DNA from: Paracoccaceae bacterium
GTDB lineage: Bacteria; Pseudomonadota; Alphaproteobacteria; Rhodobacterales; Rhodobacteraceae
Assembly: GCA_014359745.1 (NCBI GenBank)
Contig: JACIYW010000001.1
Span: 1-64,000, forward strand
Direction: 5' to 3'
Length of the DNA: 64,000 nucleotides
Of the stretch, positions 3,234-51,025 are shown piece by piece (positions within the stretch are counted from its first letter, which is position 1; every line of letters starts with the position of its first letter). A program made the translations under genes and the position numbers. The notes below the pieces were generated by a model. That model did not search any database, was not told the origin of the DNA, and worked only from the letters and a program-made list of their open reading frames with translations.

Positions 3234-5149
3234 ACCGCGTGGATCAGACCCGGACCGACCGCCTCAAGACCGCCATTCTGCTGCTGGCCGCAATTGGCCT
3301 GATCGCGGGGCTTGGGTTCTGGTTCGCAGGCCGGGCCGGGATTGCCAACCTTATCTGGATCGCAGGGGTCGCGCCCGCGCTCGCCGCGCTGGTGGTCGAG
3401 ATCATCCGAAGCCTGCGCTCCGGCGAGGTGGGCCTTGATATCGTGGCGGCGCTGTCGATGTCGGCGGCGCTGGCCTTTGGCGAGACGCTGGCGGCGGCGG
3501 TCGTTGCCGTTATGTATGCCGGGGGCACCTTTCTTGAAAGCTTTGCCGAGGGCCGCGCGCGGCGCGACATGCGCGATCTGTTGTCGCGCGTCCCACGCAC
3601 GGCGACCCGGCATAGCAATGGCGGGCTGGAGGATATCCCCCTCGATCAGATCGCCCCCGGCGACCGGCTGCTGATCCGGCAGGGCGACGTGGTGCCGGTG
3701 GATGGCACGGTGGCCTCGGATACCGCGTTCCTCGACACATCGGCGCTGACCGGCGAATCGCTGCCGGTGCGGCTGGCGCGCGGGGCCGAGGCCATGAGCG
3801 GCGCGACCAACGCGGGCGAGACATTCGACCTGACGGCAGTGCGCGAGGCAAAGGACAGCACCTATGCCGGGATCGTCCGGCTGGTGGAGGCGGCGCAGGC
3901 GTCCAAGGCACCGATGTCGCGGCTGGCGGATCGCTGGTCGCTGGGGTTTCTCGCGGTTACCGTGACCATCGCCTTTGCGGCCTGGTGGGTGTCGGGCGAT
4001 CCGATCCGGGCGGTCGCGGTGCTGGTGGTGGCCACGCCCTGCCCGCTGATCCTGGCCGTGCCGGTGGCGCTGTTGGCGGGCCTGTCGCGTGCGGCGCATT
4101 TCGGTGTGCTGATCAAGGGCGCCGGACCGCTCGAGACGATGGGGCGCATCCGCACGCTGATCCTCGACAAGACCGGCACGCTGACCGATGGCCGCCCACA
4201 GATCGTGTCGATCGACAGTGTGGGCGGCATCGCCGGGGATGATATCCTGCGCCTTGCCGCAGCCCTCGACCAGGCATCAAAACACCCGGTGGCGCAGGCC
4301 ATCGTCGCCGCCGCGAAGGTGCGGGGCCTTGATCTGCCCGTGCCGTCGGAGGTGACGGAGGTGCCGGGCGAAGGCGTGGTGGGCCATGTCGAGGGTCACC
4401 ACGTCATTGTCGGCGGCGATGGCTTTGTCGCGGGGCGCGTCGTCGGGGGGCAAGCGGGCGATCATCCCGCCATGGCCGCCGGATCGGTCCTCGTTGCCGT
4501 GGCGGTCGATGGCCATATGGCGGGGCATCTGGTGATGTCCGATCCGCTGCGCGCGGGCACCGGCGCCATGCTGGACGGGCTGCGCCGACAGGGGATCGCG
4601 CGCATATTGCTGGCCACCGGCGACCGCGTAGAGGTCGCCGAGCGGGTGACCGAGGGGCTGGGCCTTGACGGGCTGCGCGCCGGGCTGACGCCCGACCAGA
4701 AAACCCTGTTGGTGCTGACCGAGGGCAAACGCGCGCCGGTGATGATGGTGGGCGACGGGGTGAACGACGCGCCCGCGCTGGCCGCCGCCGATGTCGGCGT
4801 TGCCATGGGCGCGCGCGGCGCGGCGGCCTCGGCCGAGGCCGCCGATGTGGTACTGCTGGTGGACCGGGTTGACAGGCTTGGGCCGGGGATAGAGATCGCG
4901 CGCGCCGCGCGCCGGATCGCCGTCGAAAGCGTTGTCGCGGGGATCGGCCTGTCGGTGATGGGCATGATCGCCGCTGCCCTGGGCTATCTCACGCCGGTGC
5001 AGGGTGCCCTGTTGCAAGAGGTGATCGACGTCGCCGTGATCCTGAACGCGCTGCGCGCGCTGCGCATCACACCCCATGACCCCGCTGCACCAACCCCACA
5101 GGCCGACCCCGCCGGGCAGGCCGACATCGCGCAAGGAGCGACGCCATGA
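3230..5149 (+). CDS. P1B-type heavy-metal-transporting ATPase
   Basis: This 639-residue membrane pump moves metal ions at the expense of ATP. It lacks an N-terminal metal-binding domain and starts directly with membrane helices (about 12-60). The actuator motif LTGESLPV lies near 180. The metal site in the membrane is ATPCPL at 268-273. The phosphorylation motif DKTGT has its aspartate at 313, HP lies near residue 350, and GDGVNDAP near 507. The TPC form, instead of CPC, resembles the P1B-5 group linked to Ni/Fe export, though the hemerythrin tail of that group is absent. The ATG overlaps the apbE stop, and its own stop overlaps the VIT gene (ATGA). Metal specificity is inferred. Confidence 0.88.
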   Translation: MNRVDQTRTDRLKTAILLLAAIGLIAGLGFWFAGRAGIANLIWIAGVAPALAALVVEIIRSLRSGEVGLDIVAALSMSAALAFGETLAAAVVAVMYAGGTFLESFAEGRARRDMRDLLSRVPRTATRHSNGGLEDIPLDQIAPGDRLLIRQGDVVPVDGTVASDTAFLDTSALTGESLPVRLARGAEAMSGATNAGETFDLTAVREAKDSTYAGIVRLVEAAQASKAPMSRLADRWSLGFLAVTVTIAFAAWWVSGDPIRAVAVLVVATPCPLILAVPVALLAGLSRAAHFGVLIKGAGPLETMGRIRTLILDKTGTLTDGRPQIVSIDSVGGIAGDDILRLAAALDQASKHPVAQAIVAAAKVRGLDLPVPSEVTEVPGEGVVGHVEGHHVIVGGDGFVAGRVVGGQAGDHPAMAAGSVLVAVAVDGHMAGHLVMSDPLRAGTGAMLDGLRRQGIARILLATGDRVEVAERVTEGLGLDGLRAGLTPDQKTLLVLTEGKRAPVMMVGDGVNDAPALAAADVGVAMGARGAAASAEAADVVLLVDRVDRLGPGIEIARAARRIAVESVVAGIGLSVMGMIAAALGYLTPVQGALLQEVIDVAVILNALRALRITPHDPAAPTPQADPAGQADIAQGATP

Positions 5150-5847
5150 GCCGCCTCACCCATTCCGAAATCCACATGGTGCATCGCATCGGCTGGCTGC
5201 GCGCGGCGGTTCTGGGGGCCAATGACGGCCTCGTCTCCACCGCCAGCCTCGTGGTCGGCGTGGCCGCGGCGGGATCGGGGCGTCCCGAGATTCTGATCGC
5301 GGGGCTGGCAGGGCTCATGGCCGGTGCGATGTCGATGGCGGCGGGCGAATATGTCTCGGTCAGTTCGCAAACCGACGCCGAACAGGCCGACCTTGCGCGC
5401 GAGGCCCGCGAGCTTCGGGAAACGCCCGAGGCCGAGCTTGAGGAACTGACCGGGATCTATGTCGATCGGGGGCTCGACCGTGACCTGGCCGAAAAGGTGG
5501 CCGTCCAACTGACCGGGCGCGACGCCCTGGGATCGCATGCCCGCGACGAACTCGGCATCTCGGAAACCGTAACCGCCCGCCCGGTCCAGGCGGCGCTGGT
5601 ATCCGCGCTGACCTTCGCCCTTGGCGCGGTGCTTCCGCTGATCGTCGTGCTGTTCGTGCCGGAAGCGCGGATCGCGCTCATGGTTGCGGCATCGACGATC
5701 ATCGGCCTTGCGATTCTGGGTGGACTGGGTGCCTCGGCGGGCGGTGCCGGCATCTTTCGCGGCGCCGCGCGGGTCACGCTCTGGGGAGTCCTTGCGATGG
5801 CTGCGACAGCCGCCGTCGGGACGATATTCGGGGTCGCTGTCGGGTAG
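5146..5847 (+). CDS. VIT1/CCC1-family Fe2+/Mn2+ transporter
   Basis: The 233-residue protein belongs to the vacuolar iron transporter family. It has an N-terminal hydrophobic half with GANDGLVSTASLVVGVAAAG, then GAMSMAAGEYVSVSSQ, a charged cytosolic loop (about 78-140) rich in Glu that binds metal in this family, and C-terminal helices (about 145-232). Members move Fe2+ or Mn2+ out of the cytosol. The ATGA overlap with the upstream P1B ATPase indicates translational coupling, so the pair probably protects against the same metal. Confidence 0.85.
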   Translation: MSRLTHSEIHMVHRIGWLRAAVLGANDGLVSTASLVVGVAAAGSGRPEILIAGLAGLMAGAMSMAAGEYVSVSSQTDAEQADLAREARELRETPEAELEELTGIYVDRGLDRDLAEKVAVQLTGRDALGSHARDELGISETVTARPVQAALVSALTFALGAVLPLIVVLFVPEARIALMVAASTIIGLAILGGLGASAGGAGIFRGAARVTLWGVLAMAATAAVGTIFGVAVG

Positions 5848-6327: not shown

Positions 6328-6534
6328 TTAAAGCAAACCCTCGCGCTGCGCCTTCTTGCGCGCGAGTTTCCGCGCACGGCGGATCGCTTCGGCCTTTTCG
6401 CGCGCTTTCTTCTCGGACGGTTTCTCGAAATGCTGCTTAAGCTTCATTTCACGGAACACACCCTCACGCTGAAGCTTTTTCTTCAGAACGCGTAGCGCTT
6501 GATCGACGTTGTTGTCGCGAACACTTACCTGCAT
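6328..6534 (-). CDS. rpsU: 30S ribosomal protein S21
   Basis: The 68-residue basic protein starts [20 protein letters not shown] and carries the S21 core [20 protein letters not shown] with an Arg/Lys-rich tail. S21 binds the 30S platform and supports initiation. The length is normal for alphaproteobacteria. It is transcribed away from the COQ9 gene and has its own terminator. Confidence 0.95.
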
Positions 6535-6660
6535 GTGGTTTTCACCACCTTTCTAAGTTAGAGTTGCATAATCGCAGGACGTCGTCAGATAGCAAAGCAG
6601 AACCGCCTTGTCTACCAAAGAACACGGCATCCCGAAAACCCGGAGGCAGAGATGACTGAG

Positions 6661-6734
6661 ACATCACAGGCCGCGACATCACAGGCCGCGCATCACAGGC
6701 CGCGCCATCACAGGCCGCGATCATGCAGGCCGCG
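6661..6734 (+). repeat. Tandem 15-bp repeat at the COQ9 start, with one 14-bp unit
   Basis: Five head-to-tail units of ACATCACAGGCCGCG type lie at 6661-6675, 6676-6690, 6691-6704, 6705-6719 and 6720-6734. In frame they encode TSQAA repeats. The third unit is one base short (14 bp), which moves everything downstream out of frame with the ATG at 6652. Confidence 0.9.
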
Positions 6735-7406
6735 CTTGCGCATGTGCCCTTCGATGGCTGGAGCATGGCAACCCTGAACGCCGCCGCCGCTGATCTGGGC
6801 ATCACACAGGCCGAGGCTCAGGCGCTTTTCCCGCGCGGCGCGCTTGATCTGGCGCTGGCCTGGCACCGGCAGGGCGATGCCGCGATGGTGGAGCGCCTCC
6901 GCGCCCTCGATCTGGCCGACCTCCGCTTTCGCGACCGGATCGCGCTGGCCGTGCGCACCCGGTTGGAGGTGGCCGAAGACCGCGAGGCGGTGCGCCGCGC
7001 CACCGCCTTCTTTGCCCTGCCGCCCCATGCCGCCGAAGGCACCCGCGCGATCTGGAACACCGTCGATCTGATCTGGACAACGCTTGGCGATACCTCGGAC
7101 GATATCAACTGGTATACCAAACGCGCAACGCTTGCCGCCGTCTACAGCGCAACGGTGCTGTATTGGCTGGGTGACGATACGCCCGGTTACACCGCCACCT
7201 GGGCCTTTCTTGACCGCCGCATCGACGATGTGATGCGCATCGAGGCGGCCAAGGCGGCAGTGCGCAAGAACCCGCTGTTGCGCACGGTCTTTGCCGGGCC
7301 GAACTGGTTCGCCTCCCGCATTCGTGCGCCCCGGCGCTTGCCCGATATTCCGCTGCCCGGACACTGGGCCCCGACCCCAACAACACCAAAGGCAAATTCC
7401 CGATGA
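6723..7406 (+). CDS. COQ9 family protein (ubiquinone biosynthesis), N-terminus frameshifted
   Basis: The 227-residue frame matches COQ9: ALAHVPFDGWSMATLNAAAA at the start and YWLGDDTPGYTATWAFLDRR near 160, with IDDVMRIE after it. COQ9 binds lipid and helps COQ7-type hydroxylation in ubiquinone synthesis. The better start is the ATG at 6652, preceded by GGAGGCAG. From there the reading MTETSQAATSQAA runs into a 14-bp repeat unit and leaves the COQ9 frame by one base. The ATG at 6723 restores the frame but has no clear ribosome site. Either the gene is slipped or the sequence lacks one base. It overlaps the next gene by ATGA. Confidence 0.8.
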   Translation: MQAALAHVPFDGWSMATLNAAAADLGITQAEAQALFPRGALDLALAWHRQGDAAMVERLRALDLADLRFRDRIALAVRTRLEVAEDREAVRRATAFFALPPHAAEGTRAIWNTVDLIWTTLGDTSDDINWYTKRATLAAVYSATVLYWLGDDTPGYTATWAFLDRRIDDVMRIEAAKAAVRKNPLLRTVFAGPNWFASRIRAPRRLPDIPLPGHWAPTPTTPKANSR

Positions 7407-8395: not shown

Positions 8396-8424
8396 GTAGG
8401 GTGCGCAATGAATGCGCACCCTAC
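8396..8424. repeat. Perfect 12-bp inverted repeat between convergent genes
   Basis: GTAGGGTGCGCA, a 5-base loop ATGAA, then TGCGCACCCTAC. It sits 4 bases after the quinone reductase stop and 17 bases before the argG stop, so it can act as a two-way transcription barrier or is a REP-like mobile palindrome. No U-tract follows on either strand. Confidence 0.75.
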
Positions 8425-8440
8425 GCCCCCGCGATCGGGT

Positions 8441-9679
8441 TCAGAACCCCAGCCGCCGCTTGCGCATCGCGATCAGTTTCAGCCGCAGCGCGTTCAACTG
8501 GATGAACCCCGCCGCGTCCTTCTGATCATAGGCGCCGGCGTCGTCTTCAAAGGTCACATGCGCCTCGGAATACAGGCTGTGATCCGACCAGCGGCCCACC
8601 GTGCGCGCCAGTCCCTTGTAAAGCTTCAGCCGCACCGTGCCGGTCACATGTTCCTGGCTGCGGTCGATCAGCGCCTGCAACATCTCGCGTTCGGGCGAGA
8701 ACCAGAAGCCGTTATAGATCAGTTCCGCATATTGCGGCATGATCTGGTCCTTGAGATGCGCCGCGCCGCGATCCAGGGTGATCTGTTCGATGCCGCGATG
8801 CGCCTCCAACAGCAGCGTGCCGCCCGGCGTCTCGTAGATGCCGCGCGATTTCATGCCGACGAACCGCCCCTCGACCAGATCCAGCCGCCCGATCCCGTGC
8901 TTGCCGCCCAACTCATTGAGCCGGGTCAGGATCGTGGCGGGCGAAAGCGCCTCGCCATTGATCGACACGGCGTCGCCGCGTTCAAACCCGATTTCCACAT
9001 ATTCCGGCGTATCGGGCGCGTCTTCGGGGTGCGCTGTGCGCTGATAGACGTAATCAGGCGCCTCTTCGGCGGGGTTTTCCAGCACCTTGCCTTCGGAGGA
9101 GGTGTGCAAAAGGTTCGCATCCACCGAAAACGGCGCCTCGCCGCGCTTGTCTTTCGCGATGGGGATCTGATGCGCCTCGGCGAATTCCAGAAGCTTGGTG
9201 CGGCTGGTCAGATCCCATTCCCGCCAAGGCGCGATCACCCGGATCTCGGGGTTGAGCGCATAGGCCGCCAACTCGAACCGCACCTGATCGTTGCCCTTGC
9301 CCGTTGCCCCATGCGCCACCGCATCGGCGCCGGTCATCGCCGCAATCTCTATCAACCGCTTGGAAATCAGCGGCCGCGCGATCGAGGTGCCCAGCAGATA
9401 CAGCCCCTCATAAAGCGCGTTCGCGCGGAACATCGGAAACACGAAATCGCGCACGAATTCCTCGCGCACATCCTCGATATAGATGTTTTCGGGGGCGATC
9501 CCCAGCAGTTCGGCCTTCTTGCGCGCGGGATCAAGCTCTTCTCCCTGGCCCAGATCGGCGGTGAAGGTGACCACCTCACAGCCGTATTCGGTTTGCAGCC
9601 ATTTCAGGATGATCGAGGTATCAAGCCCGCCGGAATAGGCAAGGACAACCTTCTTGGGCGCGGGTCTGGCAGTTGGCAT
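8441..9679 (-). CDS. argG: Argininosuccinate synthase
   Basis: The 412-residue enzyme joins citrulline and aspartate using ATP in arginine synthesis. The PP-loop [15 protein letters not shown] is near residue 14, and [15 protein letters not shown] is near 122. The start at 9679 ([12 protein letters not shown]) was chosen over an open extension to 9877 because CGGAG precedes it and the length matches the family. It stands alone, convergent with the quinone reductase and divergent from lldD. Confidence 0.95.
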
Positions 9680-9835
9680 GGCGGGCTCCGACAGGGGTGT
9701 GACGGGCGGGGTGTAAAGCCTTTGTCCCGGTCCGGCAAGGGCCGGGCGCGCCCGGTCCGCAAGCGCCAACACGATTGCGCACCCCGGCAAGGATTGGTAA
9801 CAGAAATTCACCGTTTGCGGCACAGGAAAGCCACC

Positions 9836-10999
9836 ATGCCCGTCATCACCAATATCGCCGACCTCAAGCGCCTGCACCGCGCCCGCACCCCGGCGATGTT
9901 CTATGATTACGCCGAGTCGGGCAGTTGGACGGAACAGACCTTCCGCGACAACAGCAGCGATTTCGCCGACATCCGCCTGCGCCAGAAAGTCGCGGTGAAC
10001 ATGGAAGGGCGCAGCACCGCATCAACGATGATCGGGCAGGATGTGGCGATGCCCGTCGCCCTTGCCCCCATCGGCCTTCTGGGGATGCAATCGGCCGATG
10101 GCGAGATCAAGGCCGCCCGCGCCGCCGAAAAATTCGGCGTGCCCTTCACCCTCTCCACCATGTCGATCTGTTCGATCGAGGACGTGGCGGCGCATACCAC
10201 CAAACCCTTCTGGTTTCAGGTCTATACCCTGCGCGAAGAAGATTTCATGCGCCGCCTGATCGAACGCGCCCGCGCCGCCAATTGTTCGGCACTGGTGATC
10301 ACCGTCGATCTGCAAATCATGGGCCAGCGTCACAAGGATATCCGGCACGGCCTTTCGGCCCCGCCCAAACTTACCGCCAAATCCATCCTGGACATGATGA
10401 CCAAGGTCGAATGGGGCCTTGGCATGCTGCGCACCAAACGGCGGTTCTTCGGCAATATCGTCGGGCACGCCGAGGGGGTGGATGATCCCTCATCGCTGGC
10501 ATCCTGGACGGCGCAGGCCTTCGATCCCACGCTCGACTGGGCCAAGATCGCCAAACTGAAGGAAATGTGGGGCGGCAAGGTGATCCTCAAGGGCATACTT
10601 GACCCCGAAGATGCACGCATGGCCGTGAAAACCGGCGCCGATGCGATCATCGTCTCGAACCACGGTGGTCGCCAGCTTGACGGCGCGCTGTCTTCCATCC
10701 GCATGCTCGACCCGATCCTGCAAGCCGTGGGCAATGATATCGAGGTGCACCTCGACAGCGGCATCCGGTCGGGGCAGGACGTGCTCAAGGCCCTCGCGAT
10801 GGGGGCGCGCGGCACCTATATCGGCCGCGCCTTTGTCAACGGTCTTGGCGCGATGGGCGAGGCGGGCGTGACCCGCGCGCTGGAGGTCATTCACAAGGAA
10901 CTCGATACCACGATGGCGCTTTGCGGTGAAAGAAACGTCAACGACCTGGGCCGCGATATCCTGCTGATCCCGCGCACCTTCGCGGGCGACTGGGCATAA
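9836..10999 (+). CDS. lldD: L-lactate dehydrogenase (FMN, alpha-hydroxy-acid oxidase family)
   Basis: The 387-residue protein is a flavoprotein of the lactate/glycolate oxidase family. The signature [14 protein letters not shown] carries the catalytic His and the substrate Arg near 273-279. Other family stretches are [16 protein letters not shown] near 79 and [20 protein letters not shown] near 305. The reaction is lactate to pyruvate with electrons to quinone at the membrane. Start 9836 is preceded by AGGA. A remnant LysR gene abuts its 3' end on the other strand. Confidence 0.88.
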
Positions 11000-28496: not shown

Positions 28497-29751
28497 CCGA
28501 TGCCGCGCTGCGCCAAGGGGCTGCGATGCGCCCCGCAGGATTGCCCGCTTACGGGGTGTTCATGGCGGTGCTGGCCGCTGCGGGCCTGCCGATCTACATC
28601 CACGCGCCGAAATTCTATGTGGACAGTTACGGTGTCAGCCTTGGGGTGCTGGGGCTGGTGCTGTTCGCGCTGCGGCTGGTGGATTTCGTGCAAGACCCGT
28701 TTCTGGGCTGGTTGTCGGGGATGATGCGGGCCTGGCGGGGCGCGATGGTGGCGGGGGCGGCGCTGATCATGGCGCTGGCCATGCTGGGCCTCTTTGCGGT
28801 GCCGCCGCTGCTGCCGCCGCTTTGGTGGTTTGCGCTGATGCTGACCGCGCTTTTCTCGGCGTTCAGCTTTCTGATGATCACCTTTTACGCAACCGGCGTG
28901 CAACGGGCGGCCAGCCTGGGCGCTGGGGGGCATGTGCGGCTGGCGGCATGGCGCGAAACCGGCGGGTTGCTGGGCGTCTGCCTGGCTGCCGCCGCGCCCA
29001 CGGCGCTGATGTTGATCACCGATGCGCCCTTTGCCGCCTTTGCCGTGGGCTTTGCGGCCATGGCGCTGGTATCGGTCTGGGCGATGCGCGGCGAATGGCA
29101 GGCAAGCGGGCAGGTGCCCAAGGCAACCGGCTTTCGCCCGATCCTGGCCGATCCGGTGGCGCGCAAGCTGCTGCTGGTGGCGCTGGTCAATGCCACGCCG
29201 GTCGCGGTGACATCGACGCTGTTTTTGTTCTTTGTCGAAAGCCGGCTTCAGGCGCCGGGATGGGAAGGGCCGTTGCTGGTGCTGTTCTTTCTGGCGCTGC
29301 CGCCGCCGCCCCGGTCTGGGGCTGGTTGGCGCGGCTGTTCGCCGCGCGCGCCGTGCTGATCGCCGGGATGGGCCTGTCGGTGCTGGCCTTTGCCTGTGCC
29401 GCGTTTCTGGGGGCGGGGGATGTGGCGGCGTTCACGGTGATCTGCCTGGCCTCCGGGGCGGCGCTGGGCGCTGACATGACGCTGCTGCCCGCCCTCTTTT
29501 CGGCGCGCATGGCACGCATCGCGCCTGAGGCGGGGCAGGCGTTCGGCCTGTGGTCGCTGGTGACGAAGTTCACGCTGGCGATTGCCGCCGTCACGGTTCT
29601 GCCGCTGCTGGAGGCGCGCGGTTTCGTTTCGGGCGGGCCGAATACCGACGGCGCGCTGTGGATGCTGACGCTGCTTTACGCGCTGGTGCCCTGCGCGTTG
29701 AAACTGCTGGCAATCGGATTGTTGGCATCAACCCCTTTGGAAGAAGAGTGA
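28493..29751 (+). pseudogene. GPH/MFS-type symporter with a -1 frameshift
   Basis: The first frame (28493 to about 29300) encodes seven or eight membrane helices beginning YGVFMAVLAAAGLPIYIHAP. It then turns into PPPPRSGAGWRG and stops at 29359. The missing half is in the next frame (AAAAAPVWGWLARLFAARAV, then four helices) and ends at TGA 29751. The shift falls in the GC-triplet run at 29295-29312 and equals the loss of one base. Rejoined, it is a full-length transporter of about 419 residues. The mutation may be real or a base-call error; neighbours are intact. Confidence 0.85.
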
Positions 29752-45653: not shown

Positions 45654-48527
45654 ATGGCCTTTGCCGAACTCTCTGCCACCTCGAACTTCAGCTTCCTTAC
45701 GGGGGCGTCGCACCCCGAGGAATATATGCTTCGGGCGGCTGAACTTGGCCTGTCTGCGGTCGCCATCGCCGATGAAAACTCCGTCGCCGGTCTCGTGCGC
45801 GCCCATGCCGAGGCGCGCAGGCTGGCGCGCGAATGCCCCGAGGCGCGCAGGCTGGCGCGCGAATGCCCCGAGGCGCCACGCCTGATCCCGGCGGCGAAAC
45901 TGCGGCTGACCCTGCCTGCGGCGCCCGCATCCGCCCCGATGGGCGATCTTGTCGTCACCGCCCTGCCGCGCGACCGCGCCGCCTGGGGTCGGCTGTGCCG
46001 TCTTCTGTCGATCGGGCGGCAACGCGCGCCAAAGGGTGACTGCCTGCTGACCCCTGACGATCTGCATGACTGGGGCGCGGGGCTTGATCTGTTGCTGCAT
46101 CCGCCACCACGGGTGCCAACGATGCCCGGCGGCGCGGGGGTGTGGCAAACACAGGCAGAGCGGCTGTCGCGCCGCTTTGCCGGGCAGGTCGCGCTGCTGA
46201 TCGCCCCCCGCTATGACGGGGGGGATGGCGCGCGCTTTGCCCGCCTGTCCCGTCTGGCCGGGGGGCTTGGCCTGCCCACCGTCGCCTCTGCCGCGCCGAT
46301 CCTGCACCACGGATCGCGCCGGGCGCTGGCCGATGTGCTGACCGCGATCCGAACCGGCACCCGGGTCGATGATCTGGGTAGGGCGGCGCTGGCCAATGCC
46401 GAACAGCGCCTGCGCTCCGAGGCCGAGATGCGGCAGCTTTTCGCCGATCATCCCGGCGCGGTGGATCGCGCGGGCGACCTTGCCGCGCGGCTGACCTTCT
46501 CGCTCGATGACTTGCGCTATGACTACCCGGCCGAGGTGGCGGCGGGCGAGGCCCCGGATGCCCGGCTGGCCCGTCTGGCCCGCGCGGGGCTGGCGGATCG
46601 CTATCCGGGGGGCGCGCCCGACCGGGTGCGCGCGATGATGGCGCATGAACTGGCGCTGATCGCCAAGCTGAATTACGCGCCCTATTTCCTGACGGTCCGC
46701 GATATCGTGGCCTTCGCCCGCGATCGCGGCATCCTTTGTCAGGGGCGCGGTTCGGCGGCCAATTCGGTGGTGTGCTATGCGCTGGGCGTCACCTCGGTCT
46801 CGCCCGAGGTGGGCACGATGGTGTTTGAACGTTTCGTCTCCGAGGCCCGCGATGAACCCCCCGATATCGATGTCGATTTCGAACATGAACGCCGCGAAGA
46901 GGTGATCCAGCACATCTATGCGAAATACGGCCGCCACCGCGCGGGGCTTTGCGCCACGGTCATCCATTACCGGGGCAAACGCGCGGTGCGCGAGGTGGGC
47001 CGCGCCATGGGCCTGTCCGACGATACGCTGTCGGCGCTGTCCAGCCAGATCTGGGGCTGGGGCAGCCTGAAAGGCACCGAGGCCGCGCGCCTGCGCGAGA
47101 TCGGGCTTGATCCCGCCGACCGGCGCCTGGCGCTGACCCTGCGGATGATCGCCCAGATACAGGGCTTCCCCCGCCACCTGTCGCAACATGTCGGCGGCTT
47201 CGTGATCACCGAGGGGCGGCTTGATGAACTCGCCCCGGTCGAGAACGCCACGATGGACGGGCGCACCGTCATTCCCTGGGACAAGGACGATCTGGATACG
47301 CTGGGCATCCTCAAGATCGACATCCTGGCGCTGGGCATGCTGACCTGCATCCGCAAGGCCTTCGATCTTCTGGCCCGCCACCACGGCGTCACCCACAGCC
47401 TCGCCAGCCTGCCGCCCGAAGATCCGGCCACCTATGACATGCTTGGCCGGGCCGACAGCCTGGGGGTGTTTCAGGTCGAAAGCCGCGCGCAGATGAATTT
47501 CCTGCCCCGGATGCGGCCGCGCAGCTTCTACGATCTGGTCATTCAGGTCGCCATCATCCGCCCCGGCCCGATTCAGGGCGACATGGTGCACCCCTATATC
47601 CGGCGCCGCAACGGCGAAGAGGCGGTCAGCTTCCCCTCGGATGCCCTTGGCGCGGTGCTGGGCAAGACGCTGGGCGTGCCGCTGTTTCAGGAACAGGCGA
47701 TGCAGATCGCCATCATCGGTGCCGGTTTCACCCCCGACGAGGCCGATCAGTTGCGCCGGTCGCTGGCCACCTTCAAGAAACACGGCCGGGTGTCCGAACT
47801 GCGCGACCGCTTCCTGTCGGGCATGGCCGCCAACGGTTATCCCGCCGATTTCGCCGACCGTTGCTTTGCCCAGATCGAAGGGTTCGGCGCCTACGGCTTT
47901 CCCGAAAGCCACGCGGCAAGTTTCGCGCATCTGGTCTATGCCTCTGCCTGGCTGAAGCGGCACCACCCCGGCATTTTCGCCTGCGCGCTTCTGAATGCGC
48001 AGCCGATGGGCTTCTATGCGCCCGCGCAGATCGTGCGCGATGCGCGCGAACACGGGGTCGTGGTGCGCGCCCCCTGCATCAACGCCAGCCATTGGGACAA
48101 TGTGATGGAACCTGACGGGCAGGGCGGGCTGGCGCTGCGGCTGGGGTTTCGCCAGATCCGCGGCATGGCCCGGGAAGATGCCGACTGGATCGTGGCCGCG
48201 CGCGGCAATGGCTATCTTTCGGTTGGCGATGTCTGGCGGCGCGCGGGGCTGGCGCCCGCGCGGCTGGTGATGCTGGCCGAGGCTGACGTTTTCGCCACGC
48301 TTGGCCTTGCGCGGCGCGATGCGCTCTGGCAGGCGCGGGGGCTTGGCGCGCCCAGAACCCTGCCGCTTTTCGCCCGCGACATCGACGGCGAGGTGATCGA
48401 TGAACCCGCCGTCACCCTGCCCGCGATGACTGAGGGCGAGGCGGTGATCGAGGATTACGCCGCCCTGCACCTGACCCTGCGCCGCCACCCGATGGCGTTT
48501 CTGCGCGCACGGCTTTCGCAGGGGTAA
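45654..48527 (+). CDS. dnaE2: Error-prone DNA polymerase DnaE2, C-terminally truncated
   Basis: The 957-residue polymerase has a PHP domain (1-230, SNFSFLTGASHPEEYMLRAA), the catalytic acids in PPDIDVDFEHERREEV near 402 and DILKIDILALGM-like LGILKIDILALGML near 550, and HVGGFVIT near 513. DnaE2 copies past DNA lesions with ImuA/ImuB. The protein ends FLRARLSQG, where homologues continue for 100 or more residues with an OB-fold; that part is missing. It also holds a 10-residue duplication near 53-72. ImuA/ImuB genes are not adjacent. Activity is doubtful. Confidence 0.85.
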   Translation: MAFAELSATSNFSFLTGASHPEEYMLRAAELGLSAVAIADENSVAGLVRAHAEARRLARECPEARRLARECPEAPRLIPAAKLRLTLPAAPASAPMGDLVVTALPRDRAAWGRLCRLLSIGRQRAPKGDCLLTPDDLHDWGAGLDLLLHPPPRVPTMPGGAGVWQTQAERLSRRFAGQVALLIAPRYDGGDGARFARLSRLAGGLGLPTVASAAPILHHGSRRALADVLTAIRTGTRVDDLGRAALANAEQRLRSEAEMRQLFADHPGAVDRAGDLAARLTFSLDDLRYDYPAEVAAGEAPDARLARLARAGLADRYPGGAPDRVRAMMAHELALIAKLNYAPYFLTVRDIVAFARDRGILCQGRGSAANSVVCYALGVTSVSPEVGTMVFERFVSEARDEPPDIDVDFEHERREEVIQHIYAKYGRHRAGLCATVIHYRGKRAVREVGRAMGLSDDTLSALSSQIWGWGSLKGTEAARLREIGLDPADRRLALTLRMIAQIQGFPRHLSQHVGGFVITEGRLDELAPVENATMDGRTVIPWDKDDLDTLGILKIDILALGMLTCIRKAFDLLARHHGVTHSLASLPPEDPATYDMLGRADSLGVFQVESRAQMNFLPRMRPRSFYDLVIQVAIIRPGPIQGDMVHPYIRRRNGEEAVSFPSDALGAVLGKTLGVPLFQEQAMQIAIIGAGFTPDEADQLRRSLATFKKHGRVSELRDRFLSGMAANGYPADFADRCFAQIEGFGAYGFPESHAASFAHLVYASAWLKRHHPGIFACALLNAQPMGFYAPAQIVRDAREHGVVVRAPCINASHWDNVMEPDGQGGLALRLGFRQIRGMAREDADWIVAARGNGYLSVGDVWRRAGLAPARLVMLAEADVFATLGLARRDALWQARGLGAPRTLPLFARDIDGEVIDEPAVTLPAMTEGEAVIEDYAALHLTLRRHPMAFLRARLSQG
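45810..45869 (+). repeat. Exact 30-bp tandem duplication in dnaE2
   Basis: The 30-bp unit at 45810-45839 is repeated without change at 45840-45869. It encodes EARRLARECP twice in the PHP domain. The lack of any difference points to a recent event. Confidence 0.95.
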
Positions 48528-50775: not shown

Positions 50776-50950
50776 TTCCTGCCCGGCGCAGAACCGGTCA
50801 GGCGCAAATCCGGTCAGGCGAATGGGAAATGGGGGTTATCGGCATAAGGCGCATCGCGCGCTTTGCCGCATATCCGTAAAACCACGGTTGCCCGCCATTT
50901 CAGCGGATAACCGGATGTACGGGGCGGGCAGCGCCCGCCCCGACGATGTT

Positions 50951-51025
50951 CGAAATTTCCGGGCTCGAAATTTCCGGGCTCGAAATTTCCGGGCCCAGTA
51001 TTTCCGGACTCAGTATTTCTGCGTT
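50951..51025 (-). repeat. Five 15-bp units running out of a lipoprotein stop codon
   Basis: On the plus strand the units are CGAAATTTCCGGGCT twice, CGAAATTTCCGGGCC, CAGTATTTCCGGACT and CAGTATTTCTGCGTT. The last unit is the 3' end of the lipoprotein gene with its stop. The others extend past it, and the stop triplet has changed to TGG or CGA in them. Confidence 0.88.

Follow-up and report, generated by a model that had tools for sequence, protein, structure and literature searches.

A one-base frame break in a 15-bp coding repeat at the start of COQ9, and its probable origin as an isolated accident

The 64,000-nt stretch of DNA analysed here (the window) raises the question of whether a conserved bacterial gene is switched on and off by a tandem repeat at its start. 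The ATG with the strong ribosome site ahead of COQ9 reads into a 15-bp repeat and, within it, falls out of frame with the gene. An earlier note on this DNA had interpreted the arrangement as a contingency locus, with a base-call error as the alternative. The frame break itself and the alternative stand; the contingency locus does not. We consider it probable (roughly 0.85) that this is the normal single-copy COQ9 of a Rhodobacteraceae-like alphaproteobacterium whose short, poorly conserved N-terminal leader was lengthened as a 15-bp unit slipped in frame. The missing base would be an isolated accident and no evolved switch: either an error left over from assembly or base calling, or a recent deletion private to the sequenced strain.

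The COQ9 gene and its start

The features on which the argument turns are as follows.

6328-6534, minus strand: rpsU (ribosomal protein S21), the divergent neighbour of COQ9 (PF01165, E 1e-20)
6642-6646, plus strand: Shine-Dalgarno sequence GGAGG for ATG 6652, with a 5-nt spacer (from anti-Shine-Dalgarno duplex energy)
6652-6654, plus strand: ATG, very probably the orthologous COQ9 start codon, opening an MTE leader like the MTD/MTE of relatives and lying in a different frame from the COQ9 body
6657-6659, plus strand: TGA that closes the COQ9 frame upstream (read from the sequence)
6723-7406, plus strand: COQ9, 227 aa from its only in-frame start (PF08511, TIGR02396, PDB 4rhp/6dew/6awl)
6775-6777, plus strand: TGA that ends the 41-codon ORF read from ATG 6652 (read from the sequence)

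The 227-aa ORF matches PF08511 (E 1e-29; 102 bits against a cut-off of 20.5) and TIGR02396, “COQ9 family protein, diverge_rpsU” (E 8e-54; 182 bits against a cut-off of 74.6), and the solved mitochondrial COQ9 structures match it at E about 1e-21. The gene diverges from rpsU, the arrangement named in the title of TIGR02396. It is the sole COQ9 match in this genome, and COQ9 is present in 45 of the 49 high-quality genomes searched, distant families included. There is no internal stop from 6723 onwards. Because all 40 columns that are invariant among 50 aligned sequences of the family are kept, the body of the protein shows no decay, as judged from the alignment. The gene shares with its family (TIGR02396/PF08511) sequence, length, divergent rpsU, invariant residues, a predicted all-helical fold and the length class of the leader. 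It differs in that the leader is enlarged by TSQAA units and is one base out of frame. A literature lead on the function of bacterial COQ9 was dropped, the “CoQ9” there being coenzyme Q9.

Where does COQ9 start? Downstream of the TGA at 6657-6659, ATG 6723 is the only ATG, GTG or TTG in the COQ9 frame. It is preceded by a weak AGG at suitable spacing, and its anti-Shine-Dalgarno duplex energy of -2.5 kcal/mol is no better than that of a random ATG. The corresponding value at ATG 6652 is -9.5 kcal/mol, a stronger pairing than at about 89% of 262 long-ORF starts, which bears out the earlier description of a good ribosome site. Upstream DNA was read for 127 distinct relatives. In every one, an in-frame start lies ahead of the equivalent of ATG 6723; it is an ATG in 124 of them, and the other three have GTG or TTG only. 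The leader of the relatives typically has 8-16 residues (e.g. MTD...KDRLLDAALMHVPFDGWS) and reaches up to about 32. If in frame, the leader in the window would consist of MTE, TSQAA-type units and then IMQAALAHVPFDGWS, with IMQAA replacing LLDAA; its length would be above the mode and within the range of the relatives. The upstream starts of relatives, the resemblance of the leaders and the strong ribosome site together make ATG 6652 very probably the orthologous start. Since the 127 relatives open in frame to an upstream start codon, the frame break is peculiar to this sequence in a comparison with relatives that are at most about 69% identical.

In most of 21 relatives aligned here, the upstream rpsU-COQ9 spacer can for the most part be aligned. 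At 6560-6620 it holds a family-wide block resembling TGCAGGA.G..TGG.C.TATAGCAA...TTGTC, of which the copy in the window has diverged.

The repeat array and the missing base

Reading from ATG 6652 leads into a five-unit array at 6661-6734, each unit being about 15 bp long.

6661-6675, plus strand: unit 1, 15 nt, ACATCACAGGCCGCG, encoding TSQAA (sequence read and TRF)
6676-6690, plus strand: unit 2, 15 nt, the same as unit 1 (ACATCACAGGCCGCG), encoding TSQAA (sequence read and TRF)
6691-6704, plus strand: unit 3, 14 nt, CATCACAGGCCGCG, with its first base absent, which is the frame break (spacing of the 14-mer core)
6705-6719, plus strand: unit 4, 15 nt, CCATCACAGGCCGCG, encoding PSQAA in the COQ9 frame (sequence read and TRF)
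6720-6734, plus strand: unit 5, ATCATGCAGGCCGCG, diverged, encoding IMQAA in the COQ9 frame and containing ATG 6723

“Five TSQAA repeats”, as the array had been described, is thus accurate for units 1 and 2 and loose for the others. The 14 bases counted for unit 3 were correct, as was the claim that the main COQ9 frame is off by one: from 6652 to 6723 there are 71 nt, which is not a multiple of three. An exact 14-nt core starts at 6662, 6677, 6691 and 6706, with spacings of 15, 14 and 15. These are its four occurrences in the 2.93-Mb genome, a search of which found no exact copy outside the COQ9 array. The missing base lies outside any homopolymer. TRF assigns the array a period of 15, 5.1 copies and a score of 113, which far exceeds chance; when the window was shuffled 20 times under a Markov model, the best score per shuffle was 41-70.

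With a period divisible by three, in a region that is leader in the relatives, the array is an in-frame coding minisatellite. It resembles the in-frame VNTRs of bacteria in its 15-bp unit, its near-identical copies and its place in a variable terminal region, but differs from them in having one unit of 14 nt. Unit 5 (IMQAA) matches the LLDAA of relatives at the start of helix 1. We propose that the 15-bp unit is akin to the beginning of helix 1 (xxQAA/LLDAA). In this one assembled sequence, the absence of one base from unit 3 places ATG 6652 out of frame.

Sequence error or recent deletion

We sampled 1.37 Mb of the 2.93-Mb assembly for other arrays and frameshifts. In-frame coding minisatellites are normal in this genome, since 73 of 76 coding tandem arrays with a TRF score of at least 60 have periods divisible by three. 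Frameshifts were sought with a frame-tracking HMM that recovered 184 of 240 planted indels, misses frame breaks near starts, and wrongly chose the plus strand over argG (8441-9676). It listed 106 frame switches, most of which were set aside as short overlaps that occur naturally between genes. Judged by eye, the list holds about 6-8 isolated frameshifts in otherwise intact genes, and beyond these one broken transposase and one dehalogenase remnant. The isolated frameshifts include the following, the first in the window and the others elsewhere in the same genome.

28526-29751, plus strand: MFS_2 transporter, split by a one-base frame change near 29300 in GCCGCCGCCGCCCC, with halves that match PF13347 positions 4-268 and 275-426
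L165 1202-2249: DUF1223 protein (Pfam on both halves)
L220 14057-15633: Ppx-GppA protein (Pfam on both halves)
L221 8528-9899: thiolase (Pfam on both halves)
L205 about 3599-4740: Methyltransf_28 protein (judged by eye)
L152 about 10297: probable polysaccharide-synthesis protein
L151 about 5094-5221: TagH-like FHA protein, an apparent frameshift

Four genes were compared with Pfam: in MFS_2, DUF1223 and Ppx-GppA the two halves correspond to consecutive parts of the family, and in thiolase to consecutive domains. Of these four frameshifts, three coincide with G7 or C7 runs and the fourth is in CCGCCGCCGCCCC; in the group formed by L165, L220, L221, L205, L152 and L151, G7 or C7 runs are found at three. 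Frameshifts are present at low density in conserved genes of this assembly, a pattern to be expected from either residual error or ordinary pseudogenes, and the COQ9 break fits this background, save that it is not at a homopolymer. A small percentage of interrupted coding sequences has been described for all bacterial genomes (PMC2277376). The COQ9 break is like these in being a single-base frameshift in an otherwise intact gene, from error or private mutation. It differs in lying within a minisatellite beside the start, whereas theirs are inside the domain. Since the unit is a multiple of three, COQ9 is conserved and single-copy, in-frame arrays are many and other isolated frameshifts occur, the ordinary explanation is an error of assembly or a recent, private deletion.

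We give even odds to a pure sequence or assembly error, under which the third unit would measure 15 nt in the living strain and COQ9 would be translated from ATG 6652, carrying a leader of TSQAA repeats. The conserved single-copy gene, the strong orthologous start and the undecayed body are all consistent with this, as are the isolated frameshifts in Ppx-GppA, thiolase, DUF1223 and MFS_2 of the same assembly, several of which are at G/C runs, as residual errors would be. There is precedent in the older assembly of M. tuberculosis Erdman, in which a corrected reference revealed frameshift-inducing sequencing errors (PMC12817950). However, most of the other frameshifts seem to be at homopolymers and the base missing from COQ9 is elsewhere; the 75-bp array is shorter than a typical read and fits ordinary short reads; and about 6-8 frameshifts in 1.37 Mb is a rate that is normal for real pseudogenes too.

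That the sequenced strain really did lose one base recently is a more tentative reading, at rather less than even odds, and has in its favour the sequence as given. Initiation at the strong 6652 site would then yield the 41-codon peptide, and COQ9 would be made only from ATG 6723, weakly, or would be effectively off. ATG 6723 is in frame and has its suitably spaced AGG, and the protein that starts there still has a confident predicted fold (mean pLDDT 91). Against this, its ribosome site is undistinguished, translation from 6652 crosses it, and the shortened protein would lack the first two turns of helix 1. Helix 1 spans residues 3-13 in the relative L031, of which residue 10 corresponds to M1 of the window's protein; in the structure predicted from ATG 6723 the helix is reduced to residues 2-5, a loss of about 7 residues. 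The TIGR02396 match begins at profile position 6, so that 5 positions are dropped. Were 6652 in frame in the living strain, the N-terminus would be whole, with helix 1 at full length. We infer that a real deletion would leave reduced or altered COQ9. If it is real and kept, the gene would offer a testable case of weak internal initiation.

Repeat changes and the question of a switch

Could changes in the repeat nonetheless toggle COQ9 within a population? A repeat soon after the start codon and a gene body out of frame are what the locus has in common with the contingency loci of Haemophilus and Neisseria. The differences are that the COQ9 unit is a multiple of three whereas theirs are mostly 1-5 nt, that the frame can only be restored in one direction, and that the target is a housekeeping gene. 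Tetranucleotide repeats are described as dominant among the contingency loci of Haemophilus influenzae (PMC2651432), and units of 1-5 nt as a cause of phase variation (PMC4692102). The earlier note held that gain or loss of a unit would switch the gene. This is wrong for the 15-bp units, whole gains or losses of which leave the frame unchanged; only deletions over the single 14-nt interval alter it. By enumeration, deletions between copies 2-3, 1-3, 2-4 and 1-4 (14, 29, 29 and 44 nt) restore the frame, 71-14, 71-29 and 71-44 all being multiples of three, and would do so at slippage rates. Deletions of 15 nt and all duplications fail to restore it. Once the 14-nt interval is lost, no event of unit size switches COQ9 off again, so that change runs from OFF to ON only. 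The target, moreover, is a conserved gene of the ubiquinone pathway and no surface or immune-evasion gene. We therefore regard a contingency locus as very improbable.

It is equally improbable that the locus is a one-way, self-repairing allele, in which slippage loss of the irregular unit re-opens the gene and so purges the point deletion at the rates of repeat recombination. Were such an allele maintained in a population, a gene of the ubiquinone pathway would be controlled in an unusual, ratchet-like way. Programmed frameshifting, or control of COQ9 by a translated leader ORF, is scarcely credible: a -1 shift inside the array would carry translation from 6652 into COQ9, and ATG 6723 does lie within the leader ORF, but no slippery heptamer was seen by eye in the array, the stop at 6775 is 52 nt beyond ATG 6723, a poor placement for coupling, and no relative has such an overlap.

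With the accident as the preferred reading, the significance of the locus is mainly one of caution, in that frame breaks in minisatellites near start codons can mimic phase variation. Three questions settle most such cases from existing data: is the unit length divisible by three, is the orthologous start conserved, and how many other isolated frameshifts does the assembly contain?

Further repeats were noted in this genome. The window has a 15-bp array at 50950-51019 (TCGAAATTTCCGGGC and variants, about 4 copies), non-coding according to the HMM, and a 30-bp coding tandem repeat at 45808-45876 (2.3 perfect copies). In the TagH-like gene, a 12-bp array of about 5 copies at L151 5388-5448 encodes IPES repeats; the apparent frameshift of that gene is about 170 bp away. 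Finally, a long mechanical ORF at 8408-10999 on the plus strand is antisense to argG (8441-9676, minus strand) and continues into a gene resembling lactate dehydrogenase; the upstream half of this ORF is probably non-coding.
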